Shown here piece by piece: positions 40,050 to 62,262 of a stretch of 64,000 nucleotides of DNA (positions are counted from its first letter, which is position 1; each line of letters begins with the position of its first letter). The notes beneath the pieces were generated by a model, which did not search any database, was not told where the DNA came from, and saw only the letters and a program-made list of their open reading frames with translations. Source of the stretch: Marivirga arenosa (GTDB lineage Bacteria > Bacteroidota > Bacteroidia > Cytophagales > Cyclobacteriaceae); contig NZ_CP129970.2 in the NCBI RefSeq assembly GCF_030503895.2, positions 3,457,001 to 3,521,000 of the forward strand. Direction: 5' to 3'. A program made the position numbers and the translations under genes.

Positions 40050-40565
40050 CCAATATCATCAATGCTTATAATTTTCCTCATTGGTAAATTTTTATAGGCT
40101 TAGTATCTTTATAATATCAAGTAAGAGATAAAAGGCAGGCGATAGGCCTTATCAAAATTGAAATATTCTTTGAAATCATTTCAGTAATGAGTTTGGGATA
40201 AGATATCTTCTGTTTTGATAAATTCTTTTGATTTCAATTTTTATTAGAAATGAAAAGAAGTAGCCAAAATAACGGTAACTTGATATTTTGCAACTGCAAA
40301 ATGAGTGGGAAGTTGTTTCGACCAGGAATAATTTCCCACTCTTTGTTTTAATTGAGGAGTAAATTTTAGCATCAGTTATATGATATAAATCATCCTTTCA
40401 GAAAACCCCAGTCATCAATTATCAAAATGCTATTTCCTAGCTTTATGTAGCAAATTAATCTGAAGAGATTATTAATTAACGTTCCAGTAAAATGGTAATT
40501 TTTCTAGCCTAGAATTACCAGATAGCTAGAGCAAGAATACATTCTTTGAATCATAATTTTAAATC
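40050..40565 (+). other. 516-base intergenic region before ppsA
   Basis: No gene is seen. It contains an inverted repeat TTTTGC...GCAAAA (about 40287-40301) directly followed by a long hairpin, GAGTGGGAA (40303-40311) pairing with TTCCCACTC (40333-40341), trailed by CTTTGTTTT. Next come the FNR-type palindrome at 40381 and the ppsA -7 box at 40438. The hairpin may end a small transcript of its own, because it is about 250 bases from the preceding gene. Confidence 0.5.
40381..40445 (+). promoter_or_regulatory. FNR/CRP-type site and -7 box of ppsA operon (class I spacing)
   Basis: The palindrome ATGATATAAATCAT has its core at 40381-40392. The -7 box TAGCTTTA at 40438-40445 begins 51.5 bases from the palindrome centre, which puts the site near -63.5. 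The leader to the ppsA ATG is about 115 bases. Confidence 0.6.
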
Positions 40566-42983
40566 ATGAATCAGTTCATATATCCCTTTAAAGAGCTTTC
40601 TCTTTCCGATTTAGGAAGAGTAGGCGGTAAGAATGCTTCCCTAGGTGAGTTGTATAAGGAATTAGTGTCAAAAGGAATAAATGTTCCTGATGGTTTTGCG
40701 ATATCGGCTGAAGCCTATTGGGATGTATTAGATTCTAATAATATAAGAGATAAATTAAAATCTACCCTAAGTGAATTAGATACTAAAGGATTTAAAAACC
40801 TTGCTGAAATTGGAGAGAAGTGTAGGAAATTATTAGGTAAAGCTAAATTACCAACTGATTTAATAAATCAAATCATTGAAGCTTATCAATCTTTAAAATC
40901 AAATTATCCCGATTCACTACAATTAGCAGTAAGAAGCAGTGCAACAGCTGAAGATTTACCAGAAGCTAGTTTTGCCGGGCAACAAGAAAGCTATTTAAAT
41001 ATTGAATCAGAGCAAGAATTGTTAGCTGCTTGTAATGCGTGTTATGCTTCTTTATTTACAAATAGAGCTATTAAATACAGAGAGGATAATGGATTTAATC
41101 ATATGGATGTAGCCCTTTCAATTGGTGTACAAAAAATGGTACGATCAGATCTTGGTTCTGCAGGGGTTTGTTTCAGTTTAGATACAGAAACGGGTTTTGA
41201 TAAAGTTGTGAATATAACTGGAGCATGGGGCTTAGGTGAAAATGTAGTAAAAGGCACAGTTTCTCCAGATGATTTTTGTCTTTATAAACCAGCTATCAAA
41301 GCAGGTAAGAAAGCTATTCTTTTTAAGCATTTAGGGCAAAAAGAAAAAACCATGACCTATGCTGCTAAAGATGAGAATAAGAAATTCACATATAAAACAA
41401 AAACTATCAACCTCAAGACAGCTAAAGAAAAACAAAAACAATATGTATTAACTGATACCGAACTAGAAAAACTCGCAAAATGGACCATTCAAATTGAAGA
41501 ACATTATCAAAAGCCTATGGATATTGAATGGGCAAAGGATGGAATAAACCAACAATTATATATTGTTCAGGCAAGAGCTGAAACAGTTCATTCTTTACGA
41601 TCGAAGTTTCAATTCTTTGATTATAAACTAAAGTCAAAAAGCAAAATTATTGTAGAAGGCCGGAATGTAGGAGGGAAAATTGCAGCTGGGAAAGCAAAAA
41701 TTCTACAAAGTCCGGCTGAAATTGACAAATTGAATGAAGGGGAAATACTGGTAACAAATTTAACCAATCCAGATTGGGACCCTATTCTTAAAAGGGCAGC
41801 GGCTATTGTTACCAATACAGGAGGTCGGACAAGTCATGCAGCTATAGTAGCTCGTGAAACTGGAGCTGTAGCTGTAGTTGGCGCTCATGGAGCTACAAAA
41901 TTAATAAAAGATGGACAAGAGATTACCGTAAGCTGTGCAGATGGAAAAAAAGGAACTATTTATGAAGGGAAATTAGACTGGGAAAGCACAGAAATTGATA
42001 CCAGAGAAATAAAACTACCCCAAACAGAAGTCATGTTTATTCTGGCTGATCCTGATCAAGCCTTCAAACTATCATTTCTACCCAATAATGGAGTAGGACT
42101 AATGAGATTAGAGTTTGTAATAAATAATAGCATAAAGGTTCATCCTATGGCATTAGCACATTTTAAAAACTTAAAGGATAAGAAAGCCAAAGCTGAAATA
42201 GAAGAATTAACCTTTGCCTATCCTAACAAAGAGGATTATTTCACAGAGAAATTATCTCAAGCTGTAGGAACTATTGCGGCTGCCTTTTACCCTAAAGATG
42301 TAATCGTAAGAATGAGCGATTTCAAAACGAATGAATATGCAAATTTATTAGGCGGTAAGGAATTTGAAACAGAGGAGCAAAACCCGATGATAGGCTGGAG
42401 AGGCGCTTCAAGATATTATAGTGAGGGTTACAAAGACGGATTCAAATTAGAATGTGAATCCATGAGAATTGTAAGAGAAGAGATGGGATTTACAAATGTT
42501 AAATTGATGATCCCTTTTTGTAGAACCTTAGATGAAGCTAAAAAAGTAGTGGATATTATGGCCAAATATGGTCTTAAAAGAGGGGTTAATGGATTGGAAT
42601 TATATATGATGGTAGAAATACCTAGTAATGTTATACTTGCGGAAAAATTTGCTGAATATTTTGATGGATTTTCCATTGGATCAAATGATTTAACACAATT
42701 AACATTAGGAATAGATAGAGATTCTGAAGCGTTGCAATCTATGTTTGATGCTGAAAATGAAGCAGTTAAAAAACTTATTAAGGAAGCTATTACTAGTGCA
42801 AAAAATACAGGCACTAAAATTGGATTATGTGGTCAGGCTGCTAGTGATTCTTCAGATTTCACTTATTTTTTAGTTAAAAATGGGATCGACAGCATATCCT
42901 TTAACCCCGATGCTTTGATTAAAGGGATAAAAAGTATTAATCATGCTGAATCTATGATTAACCAACAAATAGATGCGATTTGA
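40566..42983 (+). CDS. ppsA: Phosphoenolpyruvate synthase
   Basis: Converts pyruvate and ATP to PEP, AMP and phosphate. The N-terminal ATP-binding domain starts GRVGGKNASLGELYKEL and carries AVRSSATAEDLPEASFAGQQ. The central phosphohistidine domain has GGRTSHAAIVARETG with the catalytic His. The C-terminal PEP/pyruvate domain has GSNDLTQLTLGIDRD and KIGLCGQAASD. The length of 805 is normal. Its end overlaps the next gene by 11 bases. It is preceded by a predicted FNR-type promoter. Confidence 0.95.
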   Translation: MNQFIYPFKELSLSDLGRVGGKNASLGELYKELVSKGINVPDGFAISAEAYWDVLDSNNIRDKLKSTLSELDTKGFKNLAEIGEKCRKLLGKAKLPTDLINQIIEAYQSLKSNYPDSLQLAVRSSATAEDLPEASFAGQQESYLNIESEQELLAACNACYASLFTNRAIKYREDNGFNHMDVALSIGVQKMVRSDLGSAGVCFSLDTETGFDKVVNITGAWGLGENVVKGTVSPDDFCLYKPAIKAGKKAILFKHLGQKEKTMTYAAKDENKKFTYKTKTINLKTAKEKQKQYVLTDTELEKLAKWTIQIEEHYQKPMDIEWAKDGINQQLYIVQARAETVHSLRSKFQFFDYKLKSKSKIIVEGRNVGGKIAAGKAKILQSPAEIDKLNEGEILVTNLTNPDWDPILKRAAAIVTNTGGRTSHAAIVARETGAVAVVGAHGATKLIKDGQEITVSCADGKKGTIYEGKLDWESTEIDTREIKLPQTEVMFILADPDQAFKLSFLPNNGVGLMRLEFVINNSIKVHPMALAHFKNLKDKKAKAEIEELTFAYPNKEDYFTEKLSQAVGTIAAAFYPKDVIVRMSDFKTNEYANLLGGKEFETEEQNPMIGWRGASRYYSEGYKDGFKLECESMRIVREEMGFTNVKLMIPFCRTLDEAKKVVDIMAKYGLKRGVNGLELYMMVEIPSNVILAEKFAEYFDGFSIGSNDLTQLTLGIDRDSEALQSMFDAENEAVKKLIKEAITSAKNTGTKIGLCGQAASDSSDFTYFLVKNGIDSISFNPDALIKGIKSINHAESMINQQIDAI

Positions 42984-45105
42984 TAATAAATATTTTGATC
43001 AATTATTCAATCCAAAATCTATTGCAGTTATTGGGGCATCAACTCATACCGATAAAGTAGGCTATGCTTTACTAAAAAATTTACTTGATGGAGGGTTTAC
43101 TGGGAAAATTTATCCTGTAAACCCAAATACAAACTCAATTTTAGGGTTGAAAGCTTATTCAAGTGTAGAGCAAATAAATAATAATGTTGATTTAGCTATT
43201 ATTGCAGTTGATGCCGTAAGGGTTCCAGATATACTAAATCAAGCTTACAAAAAAGGAATCAAAACCTTTATAATCATTACTGCTGGCTTTAAGGAAAGCA
43301 CATCAATTGGAGCTAAAGTATTAGAAGAAAAATTAGTTGAAGTAGTTTACGCTTACGAATTATTTGTAATTGGTCCGAATTGCTTGGGAGTTATCAATAC
43401 TCAACCAACTATTAATATGAATGCAACCTTTGCTCGTGTTGCTCCTAAGAAAGGCAACATAGCTTTTGTTTCACAAAGTGGTGCCATCGGTATACATGCT
43501 TTGGAATATGCAGCGAGGCAAGATATTGGATTCAGTAAATTTGTAACAATTGGTAATAAAACAGCTATAAATGAAAATGATCTATTGAATTATTTAATTG
43601 ATGATGAAGAAACTAAAGTGATATTGTTATATCTAGAAAGTTTTTCAGATGGTATTAGATTTAAGGAGATAATTCAATCAAAAAATCAACAGCAGTTAAA
43701 ACCCATTATTATATTAAAATCAGGAAGAACTGAAAGTGGTATTAAAGCAGCACTTTCCCATACAGGCGCATTAACTGGCGAAGATAATATTGTTAGTCAG
43801 TTTCTTGATGATTGTGGTGTACTTAGAGTAGATTCCATTGAAGAATTATTTACAACTGCTTTGCTTATTGCGAATCAACCCAAGCCAAAAGGTAATAAAT
43901 TATTAGTATTGACTAATGCAGGTGGATTAGGAATTATGGCAATGGATGCCACTAAGGATACAAGCTTAGTGGCTATAAAATTAATGAAACCTGAGCAAGA
44001 CATTCTTCAAAAAGAGTTACCTAATGCAGCCTCAACTGCTAATCCCGTAGATATATTAGGAGATGCAGGGGCAGAACGGTATAGTCATACATTAAAGACC
44101 CTTCTTGATATAAATAGCTTTGATTTGTTGTTGATGATTTGTACTCCTCAATTTATGACGAATAGAGCCCAAATTTTGAATTCAATACTAGATTTGGTAG
44201 CTAAAGCTAGAAAAAATCAAATTACACTTGCCGCTGTGTTTCCTTCTATCAATGAGGAATTGTTCACTATTTTTGATGCCTATGATTTACCCAACTATGA
44301 ATTTCCAGAACAAGCCATAAATGCCTTTTCTAATTATGTAAGATTTGCTAATTATAAGTTCGAGGACGCACTAGTTCAAAACACAAAGTTAATTAACAGA
44401 AAATATAATCATCTAAAAAAATTATTCGATAAAGCTAAGCACCATAATCAAGAATACTTGAATGAAGTTGAAAGTTATAGTATACTCAAAGAATATGGGG
44501 TTACCTTGGCCCCTCATTATGTGACCAAGCATATTGGTGAAGCCATTTCTTTAGCGGATAAAATCGGGTATCCAGTGGTTGCTAAAATCATAGTCAAAGG
44601 TGTTCTCCACAAATTTGATCAAGGAGGTGTAATCCTTAATATTAATACTAAAACTGAATTGATTGAAGCCTATAATCGCTTACATGAGAGCTTTAATTCT
44701 AAAAGGGTGGAAGGGGTACTGATACAATCACAAATTAAAAAAGGAATTGAATTTATTATTGGTAGTAAATTTCATGAAGGTTTTGGCCATTTTATAATGT
44801 TTGGTTTAGGTGGAACCTATGTTGAAATATTAAAGGATATTAAATTAGCAATGTCACCACTCACAAAAGTTAAAGCTTACGAGTTAATAGAATCAATAAG
44901 AGCTAAGGAAATAATGGAAGGCTATCGTGGTATTAAACCTATTAATAAAGAAGCGCTTGTTAATCTACTTTTAAAAGTCTCCAATATAGTTAATGATTTT
45001 CCAGAGATTGAATCCTTAGATTTAAACCCGGTATTTGCTCTTGAGAATGACGCCATTGTAGCAGATGCTCGCATCATTTTGAAAAAAGAGGTTACTAAAA
45101 AATGA
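42973..45105 (+). CDS. ADP-forming acyl/acetyl-CoA synthetase, alpha-beta fusion
   Basis: Interconverts acyl-CoA + ADP + Pi with acid + ATP + CoA, giving ATP by substrate-level phosphorylation. The N-terminal CoA-binding domain has FNPKSIAVIGASTHTDKVG and VIGPNCLGVIN. The ligase domain has VSQSGAIGIHALEYA and the likely phosphohistidine in ALSHTGALTGED. The C-terminal ATP-grasp domain has YPVVAKIIVKGVLHKFDQGG. At 710 residues it lacks the acetyltransferase domain of Pat-type relatives. Translational coupling to ppsA suggests a joint role at the pyruvate/acetyl-CoA/acetate node. A hairpin follows. Confidence 0.9.
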   Translation: MRFDNKYFDQLFNPKSIAVIGASTHTDKVGYALLKNLLDGGFTGKIYPVNPNTNSILGLKAYSSVEQINNNVDLAIIAVDAVRVPDILNQAYKKGIKTFIIITAGFKESTSIGAKVLEEKLVEVVYAYELFVIGPNCLGVINTQPTINMNATFARVAPKKGNIAFVSQSGAIGIHALEYAARQDIGFSKFVTIGNKTAINENDLLNYLIDDEETKVILLYLESFSDGIRFKEIIQSKNQQQLKPIIILKSGRTESGIKAALSHTGALTGEDNIVSQFLDDCGVLRVDSIEELFTTALLIANQPKPKGNKLLVLTNAGGLGIMAMDATKDTSLVAIKLMKPEQDILQKELPNAASTANPVDILGDAGAERYSHTLKTLLDINSFDLLLMICTPQFMTNRAQILNSILDLVAKARKNQITLAAVFPSINEELFTIFDAYDLPNYEFPEQAINAFSNYVRFANYKFEDALVQNTKLINRKYNHLKKLFDKAKHHNQEYLNEVESYSILKEYGVTLAPHYVTKHIGEAISLADKIGYPVVAKIIVKGVLHKFDQGGVILNINTKTELIEAYNRLHESFNSKRVEGVLIQSQIKKGIEFIIGSKFHEGFGHFIMFGLGGTYVEILKDIKLAMSPLTKVKAYELIESIRAKEIMEGYRGIKPINKEALVNLLLKVSNIVNDFPEIESLDLNPVFALENDAIVADARIILKKEVTKK

Positions 45106-45122
45106 GTTATATCTAAATCATC

Positions 45123-45172
45123 AAAAAAAGAGATTAAAATTTTTAGTATTAAACCAATCCTTTTAATCTCTT
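45123..45172 (-). terminator. Bidirectional terminator hairpin
   Basis: A 12-bp stem, AAGAGATTAAAA (45128-45139) and TTTTAATCTCTT (45161-45172). The A-run at 45123-45129 gives a U-tract to transcripts on the minus strand. It lies between convergent operons. Confidence 0.65.
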
Positions 45173-45185
45173 ACAATTCGAGTGA

Positions 45186-47266: not shown

Positions 47267-47794
47267 TTAATATGATCTAATGATCAATTGCATATTATTT
47301 CCTCTTTGCTGAATATTCAATTCAGGGGAATCTGTAGCAGTAGAAGTGTGTATAACACTATTATATTGACCATCTTGCACAATATTACTTTTCGCAAAAT
47401 TGCTAGAGATCTGTTGTTGTACTGTATTATAATTCCCATCTTGAGTAATATAGACTTCTATAAAATCACCATTAAGTTCTCCATAGTAATTATTCATACT
47501 CCCTGTTTGGCTTAGCGCAAATTGTCCATTTAAACCATTTTGTAAAACATACATTGAGTTATTTAATCCTTGCTGATTAACAGTGGTTGTATGAAGTCCG
47601 ACTTGCTTGATGTAAGCATTATTTTCGTCCCCTAATTGAAGTAATGACACTTCATTATTTAGAGCATTTTGTTGTTCATTTTCAATATTAATTTGTTCTA
47701 TGTCGATAGCATTATCATTATTTTGAGCTTTAACCATAGAGATTGGGTTATAAAGCAATAATGCTATAGTTGCTATGACAAATAGATTTTTCAT
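47267..47794 (-). CDS. Minor curlin-like subunit (CsgB-like)
   Basis: The signal peptide ends near MVKAQ. The mature part has about a dozen degenerate 11-residue curlin half-repeats of the form x-Q-x-G-x-x-N (for example VLQNGLNGQ, ITQDGNYNT, IVQDGQYNS). Repeats are less regular than in the neighbouring gene, and the last ends in a charged LIIRSY, as expected for a nucleator. The assignment to CsgB as opposed to a second CsgA is by position and divergence only. The product is 175 residues. Confidence 0.8.
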   Translation of the reverse strand: MKNLFVIATIALLLYNPISMVKAQNNDNAIDIEQINIENEQQNALNNEVSLLQLGDENNAYIKQVGLHTTTVNQQGLNNSMYVLQNGLNGQFALSQTGSMNNYYGELNGDFIEVYITQDGNYNTVQQQISSNFAKSNIVQDGQYNSVIHTSTATDSPELNIQQRGNNMQLIIRSY

Positions 47795-47816
47795 TTCCTT
47801 TTTTTTAACTGTTATT

Positions 47817-47852
47817 AAAAATACTTTCGCCCTTGGAGCGAAAGTATTTTTT
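47817..47852 (-). terminator. Intercistronic hairpin between csgA-like and csgB-like genes
   Basis: A 14-bp perfect stem (47817-47830 with 47838-47851), loop CCTTGGA, with A- and T-runs at its ends so it can terminate on either strand. It could reduce readthrough from the major to the minor subunit gene or stabilise the csgA mRNA. Confidence 0.75.
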
Positions 47853-47857
47853 CAAGT

Positions 47858-48790
47858 TTAGAATTGAGTTACGAATGCTGAGTTACCATTTCCTGCTTGG
47901 TTTACAAATGAATTGTGTCCTGCATTAAATTGGAAAACTTCAGATCTGTTCATAGTACCTTCTTGGATAGTCATTGAATAGTTTTCAAAACCATTTTGTT
48001 CTTGCCAAGAACTGTTTGATCTACCATCTTGAACACTCCAAGCTTCATTAGATTCTCCTAATTGGTACTGAATAGAACTGTTTCCACTACCATTTTGAAG
48101 AACGTTTGCATAATTATATTCAGCTGAGTGTGGGTGATCGTTTTCACCTTCACCTAAGCCTTCACCATCATCATTACCTTGGGTTTGTGAAGCATAATTT
48201 TCATCTCCCCATTGTTCCACATCAGCAACATTCATAATTCCTGATTGGAATTGTTCAGAAAGATTGCCAACGCCTGATTGGAATGCGTTTGCTACATTTT
48301 CTCTATGAAGTTGTTCTTGAAAAGCTTCATTGCCTTCTCTCATTTGCATAATGCTTGCATTATTGCTGTTTCCTTGTTGATATTGATAAGCATAGTTTTC
48401 GAATCCCATTTGATTGACTGTTGCTTGACCCAACTTTCCACGTTGAATTTGTTCAGAAACATTGTCATTCATAAATTGAATTGATAAAGCTGAATTTCCA
48501 TTGCCGTGTTGGTCTTGTGTTCCCAAATTACCAATACCACCTTGTTCAGACATTCCCATGTTTAGAGTTCCTCTTTGGGTTTTAAATGCTTGATTTGCTT
48601 CACCCATTTGACCAACAAAAACATTATTTCCTTCTCCTTGTTGATCTGAGAAGTTATAGTTTAATGCACCTGCTTGCATCACAACTGCCCCGTTTGCTTC
48701 ACCAGATTGATACACATCACTGGTATTCTGTGCGATTGAATAAAAGCCGATAAACATAAATACGGCTATTATACTGATTAACTTTTTCAT
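47858..48790 (-). CDS. csgA: Major curlin-like amyloid subunit (CsgA-like)
   Basis: The start is the ATG at 48790, which gives the signal peptide MKKLISIIAVFMFIGFYSIA (310 residues in all); the frame extends upstream but with no signal. The mature protein is built of about 24 half-repeats with a strict 11-residue period, consensus x-x-x-x-Q-x-G-x-x-N-x, one amyloid strand each. E. coli CsgA has ten such strands. Residues 205-225 interrupt the array with an Asp/Glu/Gly-rich, His-containing insert (QGNDDGEGLGEGENDHPH). It should be secreted through CsgG and polymerise at the surface. Confidence 0.88.
   Translation of the reverse strand: MKKLISIIAVFMFIGFYSIAQNTSDVYQSGEANGAVVMQAGALNYNFSDQQGEGNNVFVGQMGEANQAFKTQRGTLNMGMSEQGGIGNLGTQDQHGNGNSALSIQFMNDNVSEQIQRGKLGQATVNQMGFENYAYQYQQGNSNNASIMQMREGNEAFQEQLHRENVANAFQSGVGNLSEQFQSGIMNVADVEQWGDENYASQTQGNDDGEGLGEGENDHPHSAEYNYANVLQNGSGNSSIQYQLGESNEAWSVQDGRSNSSWQEQNGFENYSMTIQEGTMNRSEVFQFNAGHNSFVNQAGNGNSAFVTQF
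47861..48721 (-). repeat. Curlin half-repeat array, 11-residue (33-base) period
   Basis: About 24 units with conserved Gln, Gly and Asn at fixed positions. The DNA is diverged between units. A single non-repeat insert lies about two-thirds of the way along. Confidence 0.8.
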
Positions 48791-48902
48791 CGTTCTTTTT
48801 TTAAAAATTAAACATCTATTATTAAAATACCTGATGAAACAGACTTGCAATACCAGCAATTACAAATCCCTTTTTCAAATATTTTGGGGAATTTCAATAC
48901 TT

Positions 48903-50396
48903 TTATTTTTGCTTATTACTCTTAGTACTTTTTTCATTAATTATTCTACTCCATAAGTTATTATTGTTGTCTTCCCTCAATTCACCCATTTTTTGCTTTA
49001 CTTCTTTAGGCTTTTTATTGATGGAAAAATATTTAGTAATCCCTACATTTACACCCCATATAAAGTCATCAAACTTTCCAACTTCTAAGCCATCCAAATT
49101 ATCAGTAAGTATATGTTTGTAATTTACAGAAGCTTGTATCCCTAATTTATTAGTGATTAAATGCTCTATACCTAATTCTATTTTGGCATGGGGATAGAAG
49201 TATTCCCAATACTTAATATCATTATCGAAATCATTTTTAAGCTCTTTTACCGTACCGGCACCTACGTATAAGTAGGGTGTTGTAATATGGTAGTTCAGAA
49301 GTTTATATTTTAATCCAATGTCTGCATATCCAACAGTAGTAGTGAATGCATCTTTAGCACCTATTTCATGCGCTCCAATACTTGACATCAAAGTAAATCG
49401 GGAATTAGAAGAGTATTCTAAATTCAGTTCCCCACCAGCAAAAGGTTTAGCTTTAACATAATCACCTTGGTAGGAGCGAGCAGTTGCATTTAGTCCTACT
49501 CCAAATGTTGCTCTTCTATTTTGTGTATTAATACCGAAAGCATCGATATTAGTGTTTTCATTTCGTTCATTTTTATATTCAGTTATAACAGCTGACTGAA
49601 GTTCAGATTCATCCAAAAGCTGCCATAAACTTTCCTCTATACCTTCAATTATTAATCCTATAACTGCTTTTTCAATTGCTTCTTTTACAGCCATCTCGCC
49701 TGGTTCATTATAGGTATAACCCATCTCAGCTTCTAACAATCTTCTTAAACTTACGAATCTAAATACCCCTACATCTATTTGTTGAGAAAGGATAGTTTTC
49801 GAAGTATAGATAGTTTTTAATATTCTACCGGTGCTTGTAGAAACTGCTCTTAAATATATGGTAACTCTATCTTCTCTATACTCACCTGAACTGCCAGTAC
49901 CAAAATATCTGACCCCTGCACCACCGGTTTTGATATTGCTATCATAAGATACTATTCCCCCTTCAATGATAATACCTGCAAAAATCAGTGGGGGTAATAG
50001 CTGGTCTTTTTGATCAGTATAGTTTGCCCTACTTGAGCGAATAATCTTTCTTTCGTTTAATAGATTGGACAAACCCTCTCTTTCTATTGGAATAAACCAT
50101 CCGGATTCCTCCATTGCTCTCAGTAGGATAGAAGTAGCACCTTGGGTTACCGCAGTGGACCAACTTGCACCAGTTTGAGATTCTTTATATTGGCCAGTCT
50201 GATCTCTAAATTTATATACCGCAGCTACAATTTTTTCTTTAGGTTCTGGAAGCTTAGTTAATTCTTTATAATGTTGAGTTTCAGCACCAAGTCTAGCTTC
50301 TTTTACTCGCATTGGCTCATACAAATAATTCGTACATGCAGAAAATATAAGCATCGATGTTATTAATAAATAATATGTGAGATGTATAGTTTTCAT
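48903..50396 (-). CDS. csgG: Curli secretion channel CsgG fused to a C-terminal beta-barrel
   Basis: A lipoprotein (lipobox SAC, Cys21). Residues about 30-262 are the CsgG domain, with the VAAVYKFRDQTGQYK start, GWFIPIEREGLSNLLNERKI and IYLRAVSTSTGRILKTIYTSK, which form the nonameric outer-membrane curli pore. E. coli CsgG ends there (277 residues). This protein continues to 497 with about 165 residues (294-460) of alternating strands (TFGVGLNATARSY, PFAGGELNLEYS, YLYVGAGTV) resembling an eight-stranded outer-membrane barrel, and a basic tail. It lies between csgF and csgA in the operon. Confidence 0.92.
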   Translation of the reverse strand: MKTIHLTYYLLITSMLIFSACTNYLYEPMRVKEARLGAETQHYKELTKLPEPKEKIVAAVYKFRDQTGQYKESQTGASWSTAVTQGATSILLRAMEESGWFIPIEREGLSNLLNERKIIRSSRANYTDQKDQLLPPLIFAGIIIEGGIVSYDSNIKTGGAGVRYFGTGSSGEYREDRVTIYLRAVSTSTGRILKTIYTSKTILSQQIDVGVFRFVSLRRLLEAEMGYTYNEPGEMAVKEAIEKAVIGLIIEGIEESLWQLLDESELQSAVITEYKNERNENTNIDAFGINTQNRRATFGVGLNATARSYQGDYVKAKPFAGGELNLEYSSNSRFTLMSSIGAHEIGAKDAFTTTVGYADIGLKYKLLNYHITTPYLYVGAGTVKELKNDFDNDIKYWEYFYPHAKIELGIEHLITNKLGIQASVNYKHILTDNLDGLEVGKFDDFIWGVNVGITKYFSINKKPKEVKQKMGELREDNNNNLWSRIINEKSTKSNKQK

Positions 50397-50406
50397 TATC
50401 TATAAT

Positions 50407-50817
50407 TTAATAGTAGGGTACTATAATCTGTGTTTCTGCTCCATCTGTAGTATCAAAAATTGTAATATTAATACCTTCAATGCTTGATAAAATCTCAATT
50501 TGAAAGCTTCCTATTTCAAATGTTCCATCCTGTATACCTTCCTCACCAAAAAGATTACTAACAAGTTCTCTAGATAGTTGAGAAAGAATTTGACGATTTA
50601 TGCTGTTTTCGAAGTCAGATAAAGGATCTTGTTGAAATGAAGGTATGTCTGATTCCTCCTTAAAATCATTCTGTTCTGATGCAGAGCTTAGCAGCCATTG
50701 ATAATTAAATGTATCACCACCAAAAGCCGGATTTATTGGTTTATAAACAAAATCTTGTGATAGACCCATGTTCATTGCTCCGAATAAAATAAATAGTATT
50801 GCAATTAGCTTTTTCAT
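50407..50817 (-). CDS. csgF: Curli assembly factor CsgF
   Basis: A small secreted protein that plugs the CsgG pore and anchors the nucleator. After the signal peptide the mature start QDFVYKPINPAFGGDTFNYQ matches the conserved CsgF N-terminus that inserts in CsgG, and LLSSASEQNDFKE follows. It is 136 residues from ATG 50817; an alternative ATG lies at 50823. It is 5 bases from csgE and 10 from csgG, so all are one operon. Confidence 0.93.
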   Translation of the reverse strand: MKKLIAILFILFGAMNMGLSQDFVYKPINPAFGGDTFNYQWLLSSASEQNDFKEESDIPSFQQDPLSDFENSINRQILSQLSRELVSNLFGEEGIQDGTFEIGSFQIEILSSIEGINITIFDTTDGAETQIIVPYY

Positions 50818-50828
50818 GATCATTGATT

Positions 50829-51311
50829 TTAAAATATTCCACTTCCTTTAATGTCTTCTCCTTCTAATGATTTAAGGATCTCTCTATAGTTATTTATAAA
50901 ACCTTGCGTTCTTTCTCTGGCTATTTCAGCAATTGATTCTAAATAATCATATCTTGCTTGAAGGGGCATTTCAAAAATCAGCATATCATTTACTTTAATA
51001 CTGATTTGTGTCATATTACCTCTGAGAGGTTTTTCTTTAATTACAATGATAAATGCTTGGTTTGATTGATCTGGCCATACCCATTTACTATAAAACAGTT
51101 CATGAAAATCATTACCGGCTTTGGTCATGGTTTCATTCACTATTAATTCATTGATTTCAATTTCTAATTGATCAATTTCTTCCACATTTTTAGGGGTGTC
51201 TTGTTTTAATAGAACTGCTGCTTTTAATTTTTGAATTAATAAGCTATCACCCTGAGCATTTAGAGTGCTTATAATCAAAAGGTTAAATAATATGAGTGTT
51301 ATCGTTTTCAT
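50829..51311 (-). CDS. csgE: Curli secretion specificity factor CsgE
   Basis: A periplasmic adaptor that caps CsgG and admits curlin subunits. After the signal peptide (ending LNAQ) and an N-terminal helix comes the family core ELIVNETMTKAGNDFHELFY and IIVIKEKPLRGNMTQISIKV, then FEMPLQARYDYLE. It is 160 residues, first gene of the minus-strand curli operon, with a predicted FNR-type class II promoter giving a very short leader. Confidence 0.92.
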   Translation of the reverse strand: MKTITLILFNLLIISTLNAQGDSLLIQKLKAAVLLKQDTPKNVEEIDQLEIEINELIVNETMTKAGNDFHELFYSKWVWPDQSNQAFIIVIKEKPLRGNMTQISIKVNDMLIFEMPLQARYDYLESIAEIARERTQGFINNYREILKSLEGEDIKGSGIF

Positions 51312-51331: not shown

Positions 51332-51374
51332 CAAAATTGGCTCAGTATGGCCTTTTTATCAATGATAGAGATCA
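51332..51374 (-). promoter_or_regulatory. FNR/CRP-type site and -7 box of curli operon (class II spacing)
   Basis: The palindrome ATGATAGAGATCAT has its core at 51363-51374. On the minus strand the -7 box CAATTTTG (51339-51332) begins 29.5 bases from the palindrome centre, which puts the site near -41.5. The leader to csgE is about 16 bases. Confidence 0.6.
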
Positions 51375-51487
51375 TTTGTCATCATGATTGTGTGCTTAAT
51401 AGCTTATGATAAAGATTAAGTATTGGATTGATTTAGATTGTAACTAAATCATTCATTTATTAGAGTGATAAATATTTCATTTTCCAC

Positions 51488-51530
51488 TGACCGCCATCAT
51501 GGTTTGAGTAATCATAAGTCATTATTTTTA
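51488..51530 (+). promoter_or_regulatory. FNR/CRP-type site and -7 box of gene 51547 (class II spacing)
   Basis: The site TGACCGCCATCA (51488-51499) is an imperfect member of the set. The -7 box TATTTTTA at 51523-51530 begins exactly 29.5 bases from its centre. It shares the 235-base intergenic region with the divergent curli promoter. Confidence 0.5.
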
Positions 51531-51546: not shown

Positions 51547-51969
51547 ATGGCAGAGGTTATTACACATACTAAAGAATTTTATGAATCATTGGCGTCCATT
51601 TTTTATTCGATGGTTGTAGTGGATAATAATGTGAATAAAAATGAAAAATTGCGCATTAAGGCATTGGTAGATGAACATTGGTCAAATGATAATAAAATTA
51701 AAAATAGCGAAGAGATCATATTTAATAAACTAAATCAATTATTTACAGGGAATTATGACAAGGAATCAGCTTTTTTTGATTTTAAACGGTATTTTCTAAA
51801 TCATCCGGAAGAATTCAATGATGAATTAAAATTTCAAATATTGAAAGATGTAGACAGTATAAGCATGGCATTTTCAAGAAGAAACAAATCTGAAAGTATC
51901 TTAAATAGCCAGCTATATTTTCTATTATTTAAATCTCATGGTTTGTTTGATAGCGACATTACAAATTGA
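51547..51969 (+). CDS. Hypothetical helical protein, possibly TerB-like
   Basis: 140 residues, no signal peptide, helical. It has VVDNNVNKNEKLRIKALVDEHW near the N-terminus, which resembles the acidic metal-binding helix pair of TerB-like domains (an impression, not a firm match). It is divergent from the curli operon and has its own predicted FNR-type promoter, so its function is probably linked to that regulon. Confidence 0.6.
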   Translation: MAEVITHTKEFYESLASIFYSMVVVDNNVNKNEKLRIKALVDEHWSNDNKIKNSEEIIFNKLNQLFTGNYDKESAFFDFKRYFLNHPEEFNDELKFQILKDVDSISMAFSRRNKSESILNSQLYFLLFKSHGLFDSDITN

Positions 51970-51988
51970 TAATATTCATTTTTAATTC

Positions 51989-52031
51989 TGATGTAAGTCA
52001 GTGTTTTTCAATTTTTATAAGCCTACTTTTA
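51989..52031 (+). promoter_or_regulatory. FNR/CRP-type site and -7 box of permease-ATPase operon (class II spacing)
   Basis: The palindrome CTGATGTAAGTCAG has its core at 51989-52000. The -7 box TACTTTTA at 52024-52031 begins 29.5 bases from its centre. The leader to the permease ATG is about 86 bases. Confidence 0.6.
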
Positions 52032-55813: not shown

Positions 55814-55878
55814 TGATTTACATCATCCTTCACATTGATTCATGACATAGGAAATAACTCTTTAAATTTTGATTTTTG
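55814..55878 (+). promoter_or_regulatory. FNR/CRP-type site and -7 box of the 55937 operon (class I spacing)
   Basis: The palindrome ATGATTTACATCAT has its core at 55814-55825, starting immediately after the ATPase stop codon. The -7 box GATTTTTG at 55871-55878 begins 51.5 bases from its centre. The leader is about 54 bases. Confidence 0.6.
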
Positions 55879-56834: not shown

Positions 56835-58388
56835 ATGCGTTACTTTCTCACTTTTTTAATAGTCTTCTTCATAACAATTGATAAGCTTAAACTATACGCT
56901 CAAGATGAGAAAACAGAATTCAATCTAAACGAAGTTTTTAACAATAATGAAGAATTAGAAGCTCTTGCTTTATATCCAAATGATATAAGAGCGGCAATAT
57001 TAGAATTATCCACACATCCTGAATTAATAGTAAAACTAGGTTTAATTCAAGAAAAAAGTCAAGAAGCTTTTCAGGAAATTATTTCTACTGAAACAGAAGA
57101 AGTTCAAAAGAATTTATGGGAACTCTTGAGGTATCCTGGTTTGGTGGAAGATTTAGTTGAAGGAGGCCCTAAAAGTAAAATAGAACTTAAAGATATAACA
57201 GCCTCTTATCCTGAAGAAATCAATGATATTTCAATGGAAATAGGGGTTGGGCAATATGATAAATTAGTAAGCATAAATCAAATAGATCAAGAAGTAAACC
57301 AGACCTTAGAGGTACTATTGAAACAATATGATGATGATACAGAAGAAAAGGTTAAGCTATTACTTATGTTTCCTGAAGTACTACATATTATAGTAGATAA
57401 TCTTGATGCCGCAGTATTAGTAGGGAATGAATATCAGAGAAATCCTGCATTAGTGCTTTCCCAACTAGAGGATATGAAATTAGAGGTAGCACAAAAGCAC
57501 CAAAAAGATATAGATGATTGGAAAAAAGGATTAGAAGAAGATCCTCAAGCTTTAGTTGAATTTGAAGAAGCTTCTCAATCTTTTCGTTCTGAAGAAGAAA
57601 TATATGAAAATTATGATCCATTGTATCCTAACGCTTTAACTCCAGAGGAAGAACAGAATAAGGAGATTGAAAAAACTGAAGATGTGAATATAGAATACAA
57701 TTATTATCCATATCCTTATTGGTATGGTTATCCTATATGGTTTCCAAATGTTTACTGGTATAGATATCCCTATTGGTACCATTGGGGTTATTATTACGGA
57801 CCAGAGCAATCAATCGTAATACTAGGCTTGCCTTCATATTACTATTTCTACTGGTATTTTAATTTTCCCACTCATTATTACCGTTATCCTTATTTATCGA
57901 ATTACATCATTAGATATTATCGATCTCGTATCTCAAGAAGTTCAACTAGCAATAGTTTGGATCGATCCGTTGAGCACTGGAGAACTAGCTCTAGGAGCAG
58001 AATTCCAAATTCTATTTTAGAAGAAGACAATGATAGAATAAGAATCGAAAAGATTAGAGAATATGGAAGATTTGAGCAAGATTATCAGAGAAGAATAGAA
58101 CGTAAACCTAATAGAGTAGTAACAAGAGAACAGTTCTTAAACCAAAATAGTAATCGTTATCGCTATTTATCAGGTCAAACCAGAATCATAAAAGATAATG
58201 AAACCATCAGAACGATACGTACACAAACTACAATAAGACGTTCATCAGCAATTCGATCCAATACTTTCAATCGAGCTAGAGACATACATCAGAGAACATG
58301 GCAGAGATCAATTCCTTCTCGAAGTGGGGCATCAATCCCAAGCTCACGCTCCAGAAGTACATCAACAAAGCGAGGTCGAGATAATTAA
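56835..58388 (+). CDS. Exported protein with extreme Tyr/Trp/Pro-rich core and Arg-rich tail (DUF3300-like start)
   Basis: A signal peptide (1-22). The helical region (35-260) begins LEALALYPNDIRAAILELST, which resembles the opening of DUF3300 proteins. In residues 288-362 about half of all positions are Tyr, Trp or Phe, with motifs such as YPYPYWYGYP and YWYRYPYWYHWGYYYG. The tail (363-517) is rich in Arg, Ser and Thr. Such composition suggests a cell-surface or matrix protein that binds or cross-links, but no function is known. It is last in a unit with two unknown genes. Confidence 0.7.
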   Translation: MRYFLTFLIVFFITIDKLKLYAQDEKTEFNLNEVFNNNEELEALALYPNDIRAAILELSTHPELIVKLGLIQEKSQEAFQEIISTETEEVQKNLWELLRYPGLVEDLVEGGPKSKIELKDITASYPEEINDISMEIGVGQYDKLVSINQIDQEVNQTLEVLLKQYDDDTEEKVKLLLMFPEVLHIIVDNLDAAVLVGNEYQRNPALVLSQLEDMKLEVAQKHQKDIDDWKKGLEEDPQALVEFEEASQSFRSEEEIYENYDPLYPNALTPEEEQNKEIEKTEDVNIEYNYYPYPYWYGYPIWFPNVYWYRYPYWYHWGYYYGPEQSIVILGLPSYYYFYWYFNFPTHYYRYPYLSNYIIRYYRSRISRSSTSNSLDRSVEHWRTSSRSRIPNSILEEDNDRIRIEKIREYGRFEQDYQRRIERKPNRVVTREQFLNQNSNRYRYLSGQTRIIKDNETIRTIRTQTTIRRSSAIRSNTFNRARDIHQRTWQRSIPSRSGASIPSSRSRSTSTKRGRDN

Positions 58389-58440
58389 TAACATTTCAGT
58401 ATTAATTTTATATTTCGTTATTCTTGACCCATTCTAAAGA

Positions 58441-58505
58441 TGATCAAAATCATCTGTAAGCTGCATTTGAATCATTTCAAACTAGTGATTTAAGTACTAA
58501 TTTTA
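58441..58505 (+). promoter_or_regulatory. FNR/CRP-type site and -7 box of gene 58530 (class I spacing)
   Basis: The palindrome ATGATCAAAATCAT has its core at 58441-58452. The -7 box TAATTTTA at 58498-58505 begins 51.5 bases from its centre. The leader is about 20 bases. Confidence 0.6.
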
Positions 58506-58529
58506 ATTAAGATTTTAAACAAAAAGGTT

Positions 58530-58952
58530 ATGAAAAAATTAGCTCTGGTGTTCATATCAATGTTATTCTTGATAGGCACCGCATTTGCACAGGATCAAGA
58601 TCGTGATAGAAATCAAGATAGAGTCCATGATCATTATACCCTCAAAGATGGTAAAATGTATCAATTTAAGAATGGGGAGCAATTAATGCTTCAAAATCAA
58701 GTAAGACTTGAAAACGGTACTGTAATAAATCCTAACGGTACTTACCAATTACAGAATAGGGAAATGAAACAGCTAAGAGATGGTGAATGTCTTGATATGC
58801 TTGGTAAAAAGTACCGTAATCGTGAACATTTTGAAAAACAAATTAAACGACAAAGAGAAAGAGATATGAGAGTGAAAGAAAGAAATAAAAATCAAGAAAA
58901 GGGAACCAAAGAAAGAAAAGGGGGTGGAAAAGGCAATGGTAAAAACATTTAA
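58530..58952 (+). CDS. Exported DUF6799-type small protein
   Basis: The signal peptide MKKLALVFISMLFLIGTAFAQ is followed by two copies of a short beta motif (DGKMYQFKNGEQLML... and NGTYQLQNREMKQLRDGE...) like DUF6799, and a highly basic Lys/Arg/Gly tail ending GGGKGNGKNI. It is 140 residues. It is probably periplasmic or surface-associated; function unknown. It has its own predicted FNR-type promoter and is followed by a hairpin. Confidence 0.7.
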   Translation: MKKLALVFISMLFLIGTAFAQDQDRDRNQDRVHDHYTLKDGKMYQFKNGEQLMLQNQVRLENGTVINPNGTYQLQNREMKQLRDGECLDMLGKKYRNREHFEKQIKRQRERDMRVKERNKNQEKGTKERKGGGKGNGKNI

Positions 58953-58990
58953 TAATAGACTATCCTAATACCATTCATAAATGAACTAAC

Positions 58991-59040
58991 ACCTCCATTT
59001 CTCTTGATATAAATTTTATTATAGAGGAATGGAGGTATTT
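58991..59040 (+). terminator. Hairpin after gene 58530
   Basis: A 13-bp stem (58991-59003 with 59024-59036, one wobble) around a 20-base AT-rich loop. The T-tract after it is weak, so termination may be partial and the next genes may be read through. Confidence 0.5.
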
Positions 59041-59101
59041 CAAATTCAAATTTATTTTATAAGCCTGCAATGATTTAAAACTATAAATTCAATTAAAAAA
59101 G

Positions 59102-59980
59102 ATGAAAAAGACCCTTCTCATATTGCTTTTTGTATTAATGGTCTTTCCACTAATCTCACAAAATGAAACTTCAGTAGAAAAGTCTTATGTCAAAATCAAT
59201 TTAAAATACAGTAGCGATTATGTTTTTATGGGTCGTACAGATTCTTTAGCTGCTCCTTATTTATCCCCATCGATTAGTTATTACCATAAAAGTGGATTCT
59301 ATACCAGAGGATCTTTATCTTATCTTACTACAGCCGATCAAAATAGAATAGATCTCTCTATAGTGTCATTAGGCTATGATGCTACATCAAAAAATTTATA
59401 TGGTGGTATAGGCTTGAGTGCTTACTTTTTCAATCAAGAAAGTTATGCAGTGCCCTCTTCATTATTTGGTTTTTTAGATGCTTATTTAGGGTATGACTTC
59501 TACTGGTTTGAAATAAATACTGATTTAAGTTTAGGTATGAGCGACAATATGGACGTTTTTACAGGAATTGAAGTGTTTAGAATATTTTATCTATTTGATT
59601 CTAAATTATTAATTACCCCTTCTTTTTACACTAATGCCGCTACTCAAAATTATTATAATGAATACTACAATACACGAAATTCAAAAATGACGCTAGGGGG
59701 TGGTTTTACAAAGGGAAAAGGAGCTAATGGGAATATTAATAATGTAAATAATGTTCAAGAATCAGTTACTTTGGAAGAAGCTTCTAAATTTCAAGTTTTA
59801 GATTATGAATTTAGTAATTCAGCAACCTATAGATTGAAGAACTGGCGGATAAATGCTACAGCAAAATTCTTTATTCCTGTAAATGCTTCAACTGTTACAG
59901 CGGACGGGGAGACTGTTTATGAGGAAGAGTTAAATAATGTATTTTTTTATTCTTTTGGTATTGGCTATATAATTAAATAG
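59102..59980 (+). CDS. Probable outer-membrane beta-barrel protein
   Basis: The signal peptide ends near PLISQ. It is followed by about twelve amphipathic strands (VKINLKYSSDYVFMG, GFYTRGSLSYLT, LYGGIGLSAYFF) and a terminal FSFGIGYIIK-like aromatic strand, typical of Bacteroidota outer-membrane barrels. It is 292 residues. An Asn/Gly-rich loop lies near residue 205. No specific transport role can be read. It starts a unit with two kinase-like genes, 11 and 5 bases apart. Confidence 0.7.
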   Translation: MKKTLLILLFVLMVFPLISQNETSVEKSYVKINLKYSSDYVFMGRTDSLAAPYLSPSISYYHKSGFYTRGSLSYLTTADQNRIDLSIVSLGYDATSKNLYGGIGLSAYFFNQESYAVPSSLFGFLDAYLGYDFYWFEINTDLSLGMSDNMDVFTGIEVFRIFYLFDSKLLITPSFYTNAATQNYYNEYYNTRNSKMTLGGGFTKGKGANGNINNVNNVQESVTLEEASKFQVLDYEFSNSATYRLKNWRINATAKFFIPVNASTVTADGETVYEEELNNVFFYSFGIGYIIK

Positions 59981-59991
59981 TATGTAAAGAT

Positions 59992-60489
59992 ATGATTATT
60001 ATTGTTTTCGGACTTCCGGGAGTTGGAAAAAGCTTTTTCGCCAAAACTTTAGCTCAAAAACTAAAAGCGAAATATCTTAATACAGATATCATTCGCAATG
60101 AAAAGTATGAGCATTTCGATTACAATGAACATAACAAAACGGATGTATATAAGCATTTGATCAATGAAATGTATAATTACGCCCATTGCAAAAAGGATTT
60201 AGTTTTAGACGGCACTTTTTACAAAAAAAGAATAAGAGAAGCCTTCTTGAAATTATCAAATGACTTAAATATTAAATTGAATTGGATTGAAATAACAGCA
60301 GATGAAGATGTGGTCAAAGGTAGATTAAGTGAAAAAAGAGAGCATAGTGAAGCTGATTATAATGTTTATCTAAAAATAAAAGAAGATTTTGAGCCCATCA
60401 ATACGCATGAGTATTTAAGTTTAAAATCGACCAATTTTAATATGGATGATATGATAAAAAAGGCTATTGATTTTATAAATGATAAATAG
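59992..60489 (+). CDS. P-loop kinase (AAA_33 / COG0645 type)
   Basis: A small ATP-binding protein of 165 residues with Walker A GLPGVGKSFFAKT, an LNTDIIRNEKYEH segment and LVLDGTFYKKRIREAFL. It belongs to the zeta-toxin/AAA_33 type of nucleotide kinases. The next gene encodes an APH-like kinase. In mycobacterial Rv2004c, a DosR-regulon protein, these two modules are fused in one chain, so here they look like a split version. The substrate is unknown. Confidence 0.8.
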   Translation: MIIIVFGLPGVGKSFFAKTLAQKLKAKYLNTDIIRNEKYEHFDYNEHNKTDVYKHLINEMYNYAHCKKDLVLDGTFYKKRIREAFLKLSNDLNIKLNWIEITADEDVVKGRLSEKREHSEADYNVYLKIKEDFEPINTHEYLSLKSTNFNMDDMIKKAIDFINDK

Positions 60490-60494
60490 CAGTT

Positions 60495-61505
60495 ATGAAT
60501 CGTTCTCAAATAGAACATTTAGTAAAAAATGGAAAATTTCCATCAGCATACAAATTTGTTGAGTTATTGGAAACGCACATTTCATGGGTAATTCTTTGTG
60601 ATGAAATTGTTTATAAAATTAAAAAACCTGTCAAATTCGATTTTCTTGACTTTTCAACCCCTCAAAAAAGAGAATTTTATTGCCATAAAGAAGTCGTTCT
60701 AAACAGAAGGTTAGCAAAAGATATTTATCAAAGTGTGGTATATATTCATGATAATAATGGAAAGTTCGAAATCTCATTACAAGAATCTGAAAATACGATA
60801 GATTATGCAGTAATGATGAAGAAAATGAATCCTGATAAAAGAATGGATAAATTACTTCGGTCTAATAAAGTGAGTTTGGAGCAAATAGATCAAATTGCCA
60901 AAACACTAAAAGAATTCCATGATAAAACTGAAACGATATATGATATTCAACCCTTAGATTTAAAATCAAAATTCAATGATATAGATGAAATATCAAACTT
61001 CGTAAAAGAGTCTTTAGGTATCAAATACAAAAACATAATTAAAAATAGTATTCATAAATCAGATCAGTTCTTAAAGCAATATGAGGCCATAATTAAGTTA
61101 CGTTCCGAATTAGGGTTAATTAAAGATTGTCATGGTGATTTACATTCAAAAAACATTTTCTTATTAGACGAACCTATTATTTTTGATTGTATTGAATTCA
61201 ATCCATCATTCCGACATTTAGATATATTAAACGAATTAGCTTTTTTCTGTATGGATTTGGAAGCTTATAATCATCATGAATTAAGCCAATACTTTATGGT
61301 TTGTTATAATAAGCTAGAAGAAATAATTCATAGTAATCAGGAATCGCAATTATTCATTTATTATAAAGCCTATCATGCTAATGTAAGGGCCAAGGTAAGT
61401 GCAATGGAAGCCCAAAAGGCAAATTCAGATAAAATGGATAAAGCTGTAGAAGAAATAAAGCTATATCTGGATTTATTGAATCAATACATTTCTGAATTAG
61501 ATTAA
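60495..61505 (+). CDS. Aminoglycoside-phosphotransferase-like kinase (COG2187 type)
   Basis: 336 residues with an N-terminal SWVILCDEIVYKIKKPVKFDFLDFST segment (nucleotide-binding Lys), the catalytic loop IKDCHGDLHSKNIFLLD and the metal-binding region IIFDCIEFNPSFRHLDILNE. This is the COG2187 family, usually paired or fused with the P-loop kinase encoded 5 bases upstream. Antibiotic resistance is not implied, since related proteins belong to hypoxia/stress regulons. It converges on hsp20. Confidence 0.85.
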   Translation: MNRSQIEHLVKNGKFPSAYKFVELLETHISWVILCDEIVYKIKKPVKFDFLDFSTPQKREFYCHKEVVLNRRLAKDIYQSVVYIHDNNGKFEISLQESENTIDYAVMMKKMNPDKRMDKLLRSNKVSLEQIDQIAKTLKEFHDKTETIYDIQPLDLKSKFNDIDEISNFVKESLGIKYKNIIKNSIHKSDQFLKQYEAIIKLRSELGLIKDCHGDLHSKNIFLLDEPIIFDCIEFNPSFRHLDILNELAFFCMDLEAYNHHELSQYFMVCYNKLEEIIHSNQESQLFIYYKAYHANVRAKVSAMEAQKANSDKMDKAVEEIKLYLDLLNQYISELD

Positions 61506-61526
61506 AATTTTAAAAAGTATACACAA

Positions 61527-61587
61527 TAAACCCTACCTCTTTGGCTTAATATGTCCTTGAATTTACATGCCTTAGAAGGTAGGGTTT
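61527..61587. terminator. Convergent hairpin between the APH-like gene and hsp20
   Basis: AAACCCTACCT pairs with AGGTAGGGTTT (11 bp) around a loop of about 39 bases that has weak internal pairing. T-runs are poor on both sides. Confidence 0.5.
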
Positions 61588-61612
61588 AATCGAAAACTAA
61601 AAACAATCATTT

Positions 61613-62053
61613 TCAATCTATAGCGATTGTTTTTTTATGATTTTTGATTGCTTCTTGTTTTTTAGGTACTGAAAGTTTTAAGATACCATCTTCATATTTT
61701 GCTTTTATCTTTTCAGCATCAATAGTATCTGGTAATAAAAATGATCTTGAAAAGCTATTGTAGCTAAATTCATGACGAGTGTAGTTTTCTTTCTTTTCTT
61801 CTACTTCATCTTCTTTTTCGCTACTAATAGTGAGATATCCATTGTCTACATTCACATCAAAATCACTTTTTTTCATACCTGGTGCAGCCAGTTCCACAGT
61901 GAATGCCTTATCGTTTTCGATTACATTAGCCGAAGGCAAACGACTAAATCCATTATCCAAATCCAAAGAAGGAAGACGTACATCATCAAATAAATCATTA
62001 AATAATGTTGATGTACGGGACATGAGTGATGGTTTTTTCATTACAAGTGTCAT
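61613..62053 (-). CDS. Small heat-shock protein Hsp20
   Basis: An ATP-independent holdase chaperone. The alpha-crystallin domain (about 45-140) has NVIENDKAFTVELAAPGMKK, the strand YLTISSEKE and the C-terminal YEDGILKLSVPKK. The family start MTLVMKKPSLMSRTSTLFND fits ATG 62053 (146 residues); the ATG at 62065 adds four residues. It is preceded by a predicted FNR-type class I promoter. HspX (Acr) of the DosR regulon is of the same family. Confidence 0.93.
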   Translation of the reverse strand: MTLVMKKPSLMSRTSTLFNDLFDDVRLPSLDLDNGFSRLPSANVIENDKAFTVELAAPGMKKSDFDVNVDNGYLTISSEKEDEVEEKKENYTRHEFSYNSFSRSFLLPDTIDAEKIKAKYEDGILKLSVPKKQEAIKNHKKTIAID

Positions 62054-62082
62054 TGCATTAAACATTTAGTTATTTGATACAA

Positions 62083-62147
62083 TAAAGGAACAACTTTCCG
62101 AGCTTATTTGAAATGATAGCAGTCAAAGGCTAAAATGACTTTAATCA
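62083..62147 (-). promoter_or_regulatory. FNR/CRP-type site and -7 box of hsp20 (class I spacing)
   Basis: The palindrome ATGACTTTAATCAT has its core at 62136-62147. On the minus strand the -7 box TTCCTTTA (62090-62083) begins 51.5 bases from its centre. Confidence 0.55.
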
Positions 62148-62219
62148 TTGTAGTGTTAAAAATCTAAATTTCAGTTGGTTTAGAGTAAAATTTGCATTGA
62201 CTGGATAGTGTACAAACAA

Positions 62220-62262
62220 TGATTTATATCATATTGTCAAATGATTGCCCTTATAACTTTTG
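62220..62262 (+). promoter_or_regulatory. FNR/CRP-type site and -7 box of the two-component operon (class II spacing)
   Basis: The palindrome ATGATTTATATCAT has its core at 62220-62231. The -7 box AACTTTTG at 62255-62262 begins 29.5 bases from its centre. It lies 72 bases from the hsp20 site, and the two promoters diverge. Confidence 0.6.

Follow-up and report, generated by a model that had tools for sequence, protein, structure and literature searches.

The window, a stretch of 64,000 nucleotides of Marivirga arenosa (C1:3457001-3521000 of the source genome, G000, which is one 3.94-Mb contig), carries in its last part, together with the DNA just beyond its end, genes of phosphoenolpyruvate (PEP) and acyl-CoA metabolism, curli genes, a cation ATPase gene, hsp20 and a kinase-regulator group, many of them preceded by Crp/Fnr-type palindromes. 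Here, a site is TGAY-N4-RTCA, a -7 box is TAnnTTTR, and distances run from the site centre to the start of the box. Judged by their sequence, nine predicted promoters of this segment (40-66 kb) are of one build, ten with the PFOR-Rnf unit just outside the window. The full tandem pattern consists of two sites with a 10-bp gap between them, a 23-bp gap and then the box; mismatches below refer to it unless a box consensus is named. The kinase, LuxR-type regulator and crp genes are called the triad.

40047..40111, + strand: predicted tandem promoter before a structured RNA; distal site TGACCAATATCA, proximal site TAATTTTCCTCA, box TATCTTTA at 51.5; 2 mismatches
40115..40352, + strand: candidate small RNA of about 235 nucleotides with a terminator-like hairpin at its end; fold z = -7.5
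40381..40445, + strand: predicted tandem promoter of ppsA and the acyl-CoA synthetase gene; distal site perfect (51.5), proximal site AAACCCCAGTCA, box TAGCTTTA; 2 mismatches
40566..42983, + strand: ppsA, PEP synthase/PPDK family (Pfam PPDK_N, PEP-utilizers)
42973..45105, + strand: gene of the ADP-forming acyl-CoA synthetase family (CoA_binding, Succ_CoA_lig, ATP-grasp_5; under the NCBIfam equivalog cut-offs)
47267..51311, - strand: curli genes csgE, csgF, csgG and two csgA/B-like genes; CsgG by Pfam, the rest by sequence, order and an earlier list
51332..51396, - strand: predicted tandem promoter of csgEFG and the csgB/A-like genes; proximal site perfect (site 51363, 29.5), distal site AGCACACAATCA (5/8), box CAATTTTG with 1 mismatch to the box consensus
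51466..51530, + strand: predicted tandem promoter of gene 51547; proximal site perfect (site 51488, 29.5), distal site TGATAAATATTT, box TATTTTTA; 2 mismatches
51967..52031, + strand: predicted tandem promoter of an AI-2E-family permease gene and a P-type cation ATPase gene; site 51989 (29.5), second site TGATAATATTCA, box TACTTTTA; 1 mismatch
55814..55878, + strand: predicted tandem promoter of genes 55937, 56397 and 56835; site 55814 (51.5), second site TGATTCATGACA; 2 mismatches; box GATTTTTG with 1 mismatch to the box consensus
58441..58505, + strand: predicted tandem promoter of gene 58530 (DUF6799); site 58441 (51.5), second site GCATTTGAATCA, box TAATTTTA; 2 mismatches
62083..62147, - strand: predicted tandem promoter of hsp20 (HSP20 by Pfam); both sites perfect (62114, 62136), box TTCCTTTA; 1 mismatch
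62198-62262, + strand: predicted tandem promoter of the kinase and LuxR genes, reading A; second site 4/8; 5 mismatches
62220..62284, + strand: the same promoter, reading B; second site TGATTGCCCTTA; 3 mismatches
62309..63745, + strand: PAS-PAS-HisKA_3 kinase gene (Pfam)
63784..64000, + strand: LuxR-type response regulator gene (Pfam), which starts inside the window and ends at window coordinate 64449
64560-65255, outside the window: crp gene of the triad, after the LuxR gene
1.4 kb past the window end: predicted tandem promoter of the PFOR-Rnf genes; box TAGATTTA at 29.5, second site CGACAAAGATCA

The names RnfDGEAB, KorB, csgE/F/A/B and HEPN were assigned from sequence and gene order, without a family search. 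A Pfam search gave no family for genes 55937, 56397 and 56835.

A sequence-only reading of the window had described eight single sites before eight transcription units, each followed by a -7 box at 29.5 or 51.5, and all of these are present at the given positions and spacings with at most one mismatch in the box; the unit at 40047, although inside the window, had been overlooked. The two distances had been taken for class II and class I promoters. This split is not supported: aligned on the box, every unit has a second, mostly degenerate site at the other phase, 22 bp away. Since a site-like second position lies 22 bp off at each unit, the distances 29.5 and 51.5 are the two positions of one tandem pair, i.e. 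the halves of one tandem operator. At hsp20, sites 62114 and 62136 are 29.5 and 51.5 from the same box. The second site at 22 bp scores 6.4/8 on average (range 5-8; ten units, kinase unit by its better reading) and 6.2 without hsp20, as compared to a mean of 2.66 at other spacings from 12 to 60 (standard deviation 0.68, maximum 3.9) and 3.0 in the wrong direction.

Sites are concentrated in the segment. Its intergenic regions, defined by crude calling of open reading frames (ORFs), contain 11 sites in 2.37 kb; there are none in 2.84 kb before 40 kb, two in 3.56 kb at 66-103 kb, and two in 34.7 kb of a 400-kb background sample (twenty spread 20-kb stretches of the source genome). The segment is therefore about 80 times denser than the sample. 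For coding DNA the figures are 0.10 sites per kb (sample) and 0.21 (segment). Reading the 11 intergenic sites in either direction gives 22 cases, among which the two most favourable distances together account for 6 exact boxes and 12 with at most one mismatch; in 300 shuffles the corresponding figures never exceeded 4 and 9, which bears out the claim that sites and boxes are phased beyond chance. Within the range 20.5-74.5, exact boxes are confined to 29.5 (three) and 51.5 (three); boxes with at most one mismatch number six at each of the two, the next best distance having two.

In the source genome the full pattern with at most three mismatches has 18 matches and the reversed pattern, which served as control, has none. 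Between 3497 and 3523 kb lie 11 of the 18, corresponding to nine distinct site pairs, two of which are also read in reverse. Two further matches are at 3534 and 3539 kb, and the other five are located before hemN (897822), a gene for a FixI-like copper ATPase (2270589), usp (3291008, also in reverse) and a gene for a 204-aa protein (2692826, 3 mismatches).

The pattern extends to other Bacteroidota. Within the family, 110 of 118 genomes have it with at most two mismatches (795 matches; control 5 in 4 genomes). Across the phylum, the pattern with up to one mismatch is present in 37 of 296 genomes (control 0); 35 of the 37 belong to the class of the source and the others are the genomes labelled G392 (10 matches) and G174 (1). 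The class of G392, a genome picked for its matches, has 8 positive genomes out of 80, and all five sampled genomes of family f46 have 7-12 tandem matches each (loci L232-L250). The spacing recurs as well: among the matches listed for pairs of perfect sites with a gap of 0-30, which come from part of the family genomes, 40 of 76 are exactly 22 bp apart (next best 4), and so are 88 of the 95 pairs spaced 12 to 60 bp apart that lie around 80 Crp genes, whose loci were collected with an alignment query. Clustering, by which kinship is partly removed, leaves 47 of 53 pairs at 22 bp, with representatives from 30 loci, 21 of them not Pontibacter. Exact boxes 3′ of the 88 pairs are found 23 times at 29.5 and 0.23 times on average at other distances, and the full pattern is present in 58 of the 80 loci (190 matches; control 0). 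The consensus of FNR, ANR and FixK, TTGAT-N4-ATCAA, with its outer T does not fit the 133 clustered promoters, for which ATGAY-N4-RTCAT is better; at the two outer positions T has a frequency of 0.23 and 0.24 and A of 0.39 and 0.33.

Further targets include FixI-like, HemN, Usp and cbb3-oxidase genes, and Pontibacter has tandem sites before the genes for FixI-like, FixN/O (cbb3 oxidase) and FixG proteins. For this reason the regulon probably serves a life at low oxygen, and it is from these targets that we infer the oxygen signal itself.

Conservation upstream of orthologues was expected for a genuine regulon, and the tandems of PFOR, csgE and hsp20 are kept in relatives within Marivirga. In G121 and G116 the orthologous PFOR-Rnf units keep the tandem (1 mismatch), and their box TAGATTTA is identical, so that a HEPN-PFOR-Rnf promoter is common to three Marivirga species. 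CsgE is present in 3 of 10 Marivirga genomes and csgE of G121 has a 2-mismatch tandem 52 bp upstream; the csgE promoters were compared by pattern position, as a MAFFT alignment left the sites out of register. The tandem of hsp20 in G120 (Marivirga aurantiaca) has no mismatch.

With respect to the PFOR-Rnf genes themselves, the automatic ORF start before PFOR overlaps the operator (L005:2439-2499, window coordinates about 65439-65499), and the ATG at L005:2499, which G121 and G116 share, is a more plausible start. Behind the crp gene, L005:2883-18818 contains PFOR, Rnf genes, a gene for an NAD-binding oxidoreductase, KorA/B-like genes and a gene for a 597-aa protein without Pfam match. In the gap ahead of korA, the source genome, G121 and G116 each have a 3-mismatch tandem. 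Another 3-mismatch tandem (G000:C1:3538916-3538980; L005 about 18916-18980) lies before a DUF2267 gene (L005:19003), a relative of which also occurs in one triad locus of G016. Two adjacent genes at window positions 59992-61505, one AAA_33 kinase-like, the other phosphotransferase-like and without Pfam match, likewise have counterparts, 44% identical, in one triad locus of G016.

The promoter at 40047 probably extends the regulon to a small RNA, as judged from the following sequence features. Between it and the ppsA promoter there is no ORF of more than 33 aa on the same strand. From 40115 onward, 251 bases align at 68.5% identity with DNA that follows a tandem promoter in G121, and similar RNA copies are located behind tandem promoters in G121 (two, the second more distant) and G116 (one). 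The blocks TCAAG..AGAGATAAARGG and AATAAC.GTAACTTGA are 151-153 bases apart in every copy. By blastn at E 1e-3 the RNA of the window joins one G121 copy only, the other copies being recognized by alignment and the two blocks. Two-sided changes are seen in 13 of 39 consensus pairs, five of them in the terminator-like hairpin, in four sequences and with a structure derived from the same alignment. A search of 39900-64000 against Rfam gave no match at the gathering score, and the RNA region reached only E 1.1-4.8.

Which protein reads the sites? HTH_Crp_2 matches are found at four places of the source genome. One of them, at 2009 kb (L001), encodes a protein with a CxxC motif, a third N-terminal cysteine and Cys 112, which we take to correspond to C122 of FNR. 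Among 42 rows, this combination (the place of the third cysteine varies, the last is at 110-113) is seen in 26 distinct loci, counting the source; CxxC is missing from 7 other non-triad rows, of which four are seemingly cut at the N terminus. The cysteines, of FNR type, suggest that this core protein is FNR-like. It was seen in 9 of 10 Marivirga genomes and the tenth, G118, has a 36% match. The Crp protein of the triad, whose gene begins 0.56 kb past the window after the kinase and LuxR genes, has 0-2 cysteines in the six proteins compared, and the four cluster cysteines of FNR are not found in it. It is present in 3 of 10 Marivirga genomes (G000, G118, G120), and four others of the 118 family genomes searched have a counterpart of at least 43% identity. 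An E-T-x-x-R helix reads TGA half-sites, and E-T-x-x-R is present in the recognition helix of both Crp proteins. In addition, many genomes of the family have longer Crp proteins (frames of 345-390 aa, about 357), possibly fused to a receiver, and in G015, G093 and G033, which are rich in tandem sites, the longer Crp is the best match.

The triad itself is conserved: in all 7 loci examined, the kinase, LuxR and crp genes are neighbours within about 3 kb, with order and strand kept (one locus from the same species, two from one genome). The first PAS domain of the kinase is closest in the PDB to 10jx and also resembles the heme oxygen sensors DosP (E 3e-10) and FixL (E 2e-6). A histidine column is shared with DosP in the alignment; this histidine, presumably the heme ligand, is kept in 6 of 8 kinases and absent in G120 and G016b.

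It is tempting to assign the whole segment to the Crp protein of the triad alone, switched by kinase and LuxR regulator in the manner of FixL-FixJ-FixK: its gene lies within the site cluster, the triad is together in each of the 7 loci examined, and triad genomes have more matches. We regard this as unlikely, however. The PFOR tandem is kept in G121 and G116 and the csgE tandem in G121, all without triad Crp (the best match to it in both genomes is of the core type, at 38%), and FixI-like, HemN and Usp genes carry the same code in genomes that have no triad. Because the PFOR and csgE sites persist in Marivirga without triad Crp, the code does not depend on the triad, and the sites are probably read by the core FNR-like protein, the simplest reader that the genomes offer. 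Since triad genomes have more full-pattern matches, both regulators may act, and in genomes that have it the triad Crp is probably a second user of these sites.

That the segment has single-site promoters, class II at 29.5 and class I at 51.5, all served by one Crp/Fnr protein, is improbable. As this would predict, most units have one position that clearly outscores its partner, but that partner scores 5-8/8 at the ten units against 2.7 on average elsewhere, and in relatives many promoters have both sites perfect. A repressor of the same family, bound to the tandem sites and released at low oxygen, is conceivable insofar as the sign of regulation is not given by sequence alone; it is a distant prospect, since the sites are at activator positions and end 23 bp before the -7 box without overlap. 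Chance palindromes in AT-rich DNA, for which a short motif and distances chosen after looking might speak, are practically discounted by the 80-fold density, the shuffles, the empty reversed control in the source genome and the recurrence across species.

We therefore favor, with considerable confidence, a tandem operator of the Crp/Fnr family that would activate transcription at low oxygen, with the core FNR-like protein as its predicted reader. In this model, an activator of the Crp/Fnr family would fill both sites as oxygen falls. The two dimers, 22 bp centre to centre, would abut and, because of this spacing, lie on one face of the helix, near -41 and -63 if the box centre is near -7; 23 bp separate the proximal site from the box. 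As in class II activation, the proximal dimer would contact the polymerase. The distal dimer would stabilise the proximal one and/or touch the alpha subunit, which would explain why one degenerate half is tolerated. The regulon would take in fermentation through PFOR, Rnf, PpsA and the acyl-CoA synthetase and stress through Hsp20 and the cation ATPase, besides curli and the kinase pair, and probably also the small RNA. Of the Crp/Fnr regulon proposed from the sequence, the fixed phasing, its conservation across species and the low-oxygen targets remain; the two promoter classes do not.

Several observations weigh against the tandem operator or its assigned reader. The csgE unit is weak, as 4 mismatches put it outside the 3-mismatch list, and so is the kinase unit with 3 or 5 mismatches depending on the reading; its site 62220 has two candidate boxes, AACTTTTG at 29.5 and GAAATTTA at 51.5, each with 1 mismatch. 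A genome-wide scan for a single site followed by an exact box, with 31 distances allowed, gave 49 cases and 33 in reverse and so hardly separates the two; it did return 10 of the 49 at the two distances (6 at 29.5, 4 at 51.5) compared to 3.2 expected if evenly spread, and 6 of these 10 are in or adjoining the segment. Many matches share a common ancestry and the counts are not independent. Against the NCBIfam Fnr model NF008365 (cut-off 228) the core protein scores 103.5 bits, below the cut-off like the triad Crp with 70.4. Triad genomes have 12, 25, 21, 21 and 4 matches compared to a median of 5 (one-sided p 0.006, uncorrected for relatedness), which also fits the triad Crp as co-regulator. 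Finally, although the pattern follows Crp relatives, being absent from 1 of 105 genomes where a relative reaches E ≤ 1e-24 and from 7 of the 13 others, there are exceptions: G098 has no match despite its relative, and the remaining 6 of the 13 have 1-11 matches without a close one.

The analysis provides a sharp, searchable code for apparent low-oxygen regulation in Bacteroidota. If it is right, regulons become predictable from sequence, curli, fermentation and stress genes of Marivirga are tied to oxygen, a candidate FNR-controlled RNA is at hand, and the mechanism of activation by two dimers is posed as a question. Whether the standard Crp/Fnr unit of Bacteroidota is altogether a cooperative two-dimer operator near -41/-63, used by several paralogous readers, among them FNR-like proteins of the Fe-S type, FixK-like ones and perhaps receiver-fused Crp, and driving an FNR-dependent small RNA as well, is in our estimate evenly balanced; if so, such a promoter class would be without a description in the papers searched.

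Two Crp/Fnr proteins of Bacteroides have been described. HcpR2 has the motif GTAAC-N4-GTTAC and a predicted regulon that in most Bacteroides consists of hcp alone (PMC1274295), MalR is tied to carbon sources (PMC8510549), and the passages available from both texts mention no tandem Crp/Fnr site. Protein family and phylum are in common with the system described here; motif or role, as far as these passages tell, are different. A literature search on Bacteroidota, within whose reach few subscription papers lay, brought up no description of a tandem FNR-type operator.

The operator of the Marivirga type agrees with that of FNR, ANR and FixK in the TGAY/RTCA half-site, the 4-bp spacer and the targets HemN, cbb3 oxidase, FixI-like, Usp and Hsp20, and differs by the missing outer T, the 22-bp site pair and the Bacteroidota -7 box. 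As in class I, II and III promoters of E. coli CRP and FNR, dimers would be placed near -41 and -61. In the known tandem promoters, however, the dimers are about 50 bp apart, whereas here they would abut at 22 bp in nearly all pairs. The triad recalls FixL-FixJ-FixK in that a PAS kinase, a LuxR-type regulator and a cysteine-poor Crp/Fnr protein are encoded side by side; the kinase here is of the HisKA_3 type, heme is putative, and host phylum and gene set are different. Sensor kinase plus LuxR regulator, Hsp20, P-type ATPase and Usp are also combined in the DosR dormancy regulon, but the operator here is of the Crp/Fnr type. The candidate RNA is like FnrS of E. coli in lying behind an FNR-type promoter, with a length of about 235 nucleotides and no relation by Rfam.

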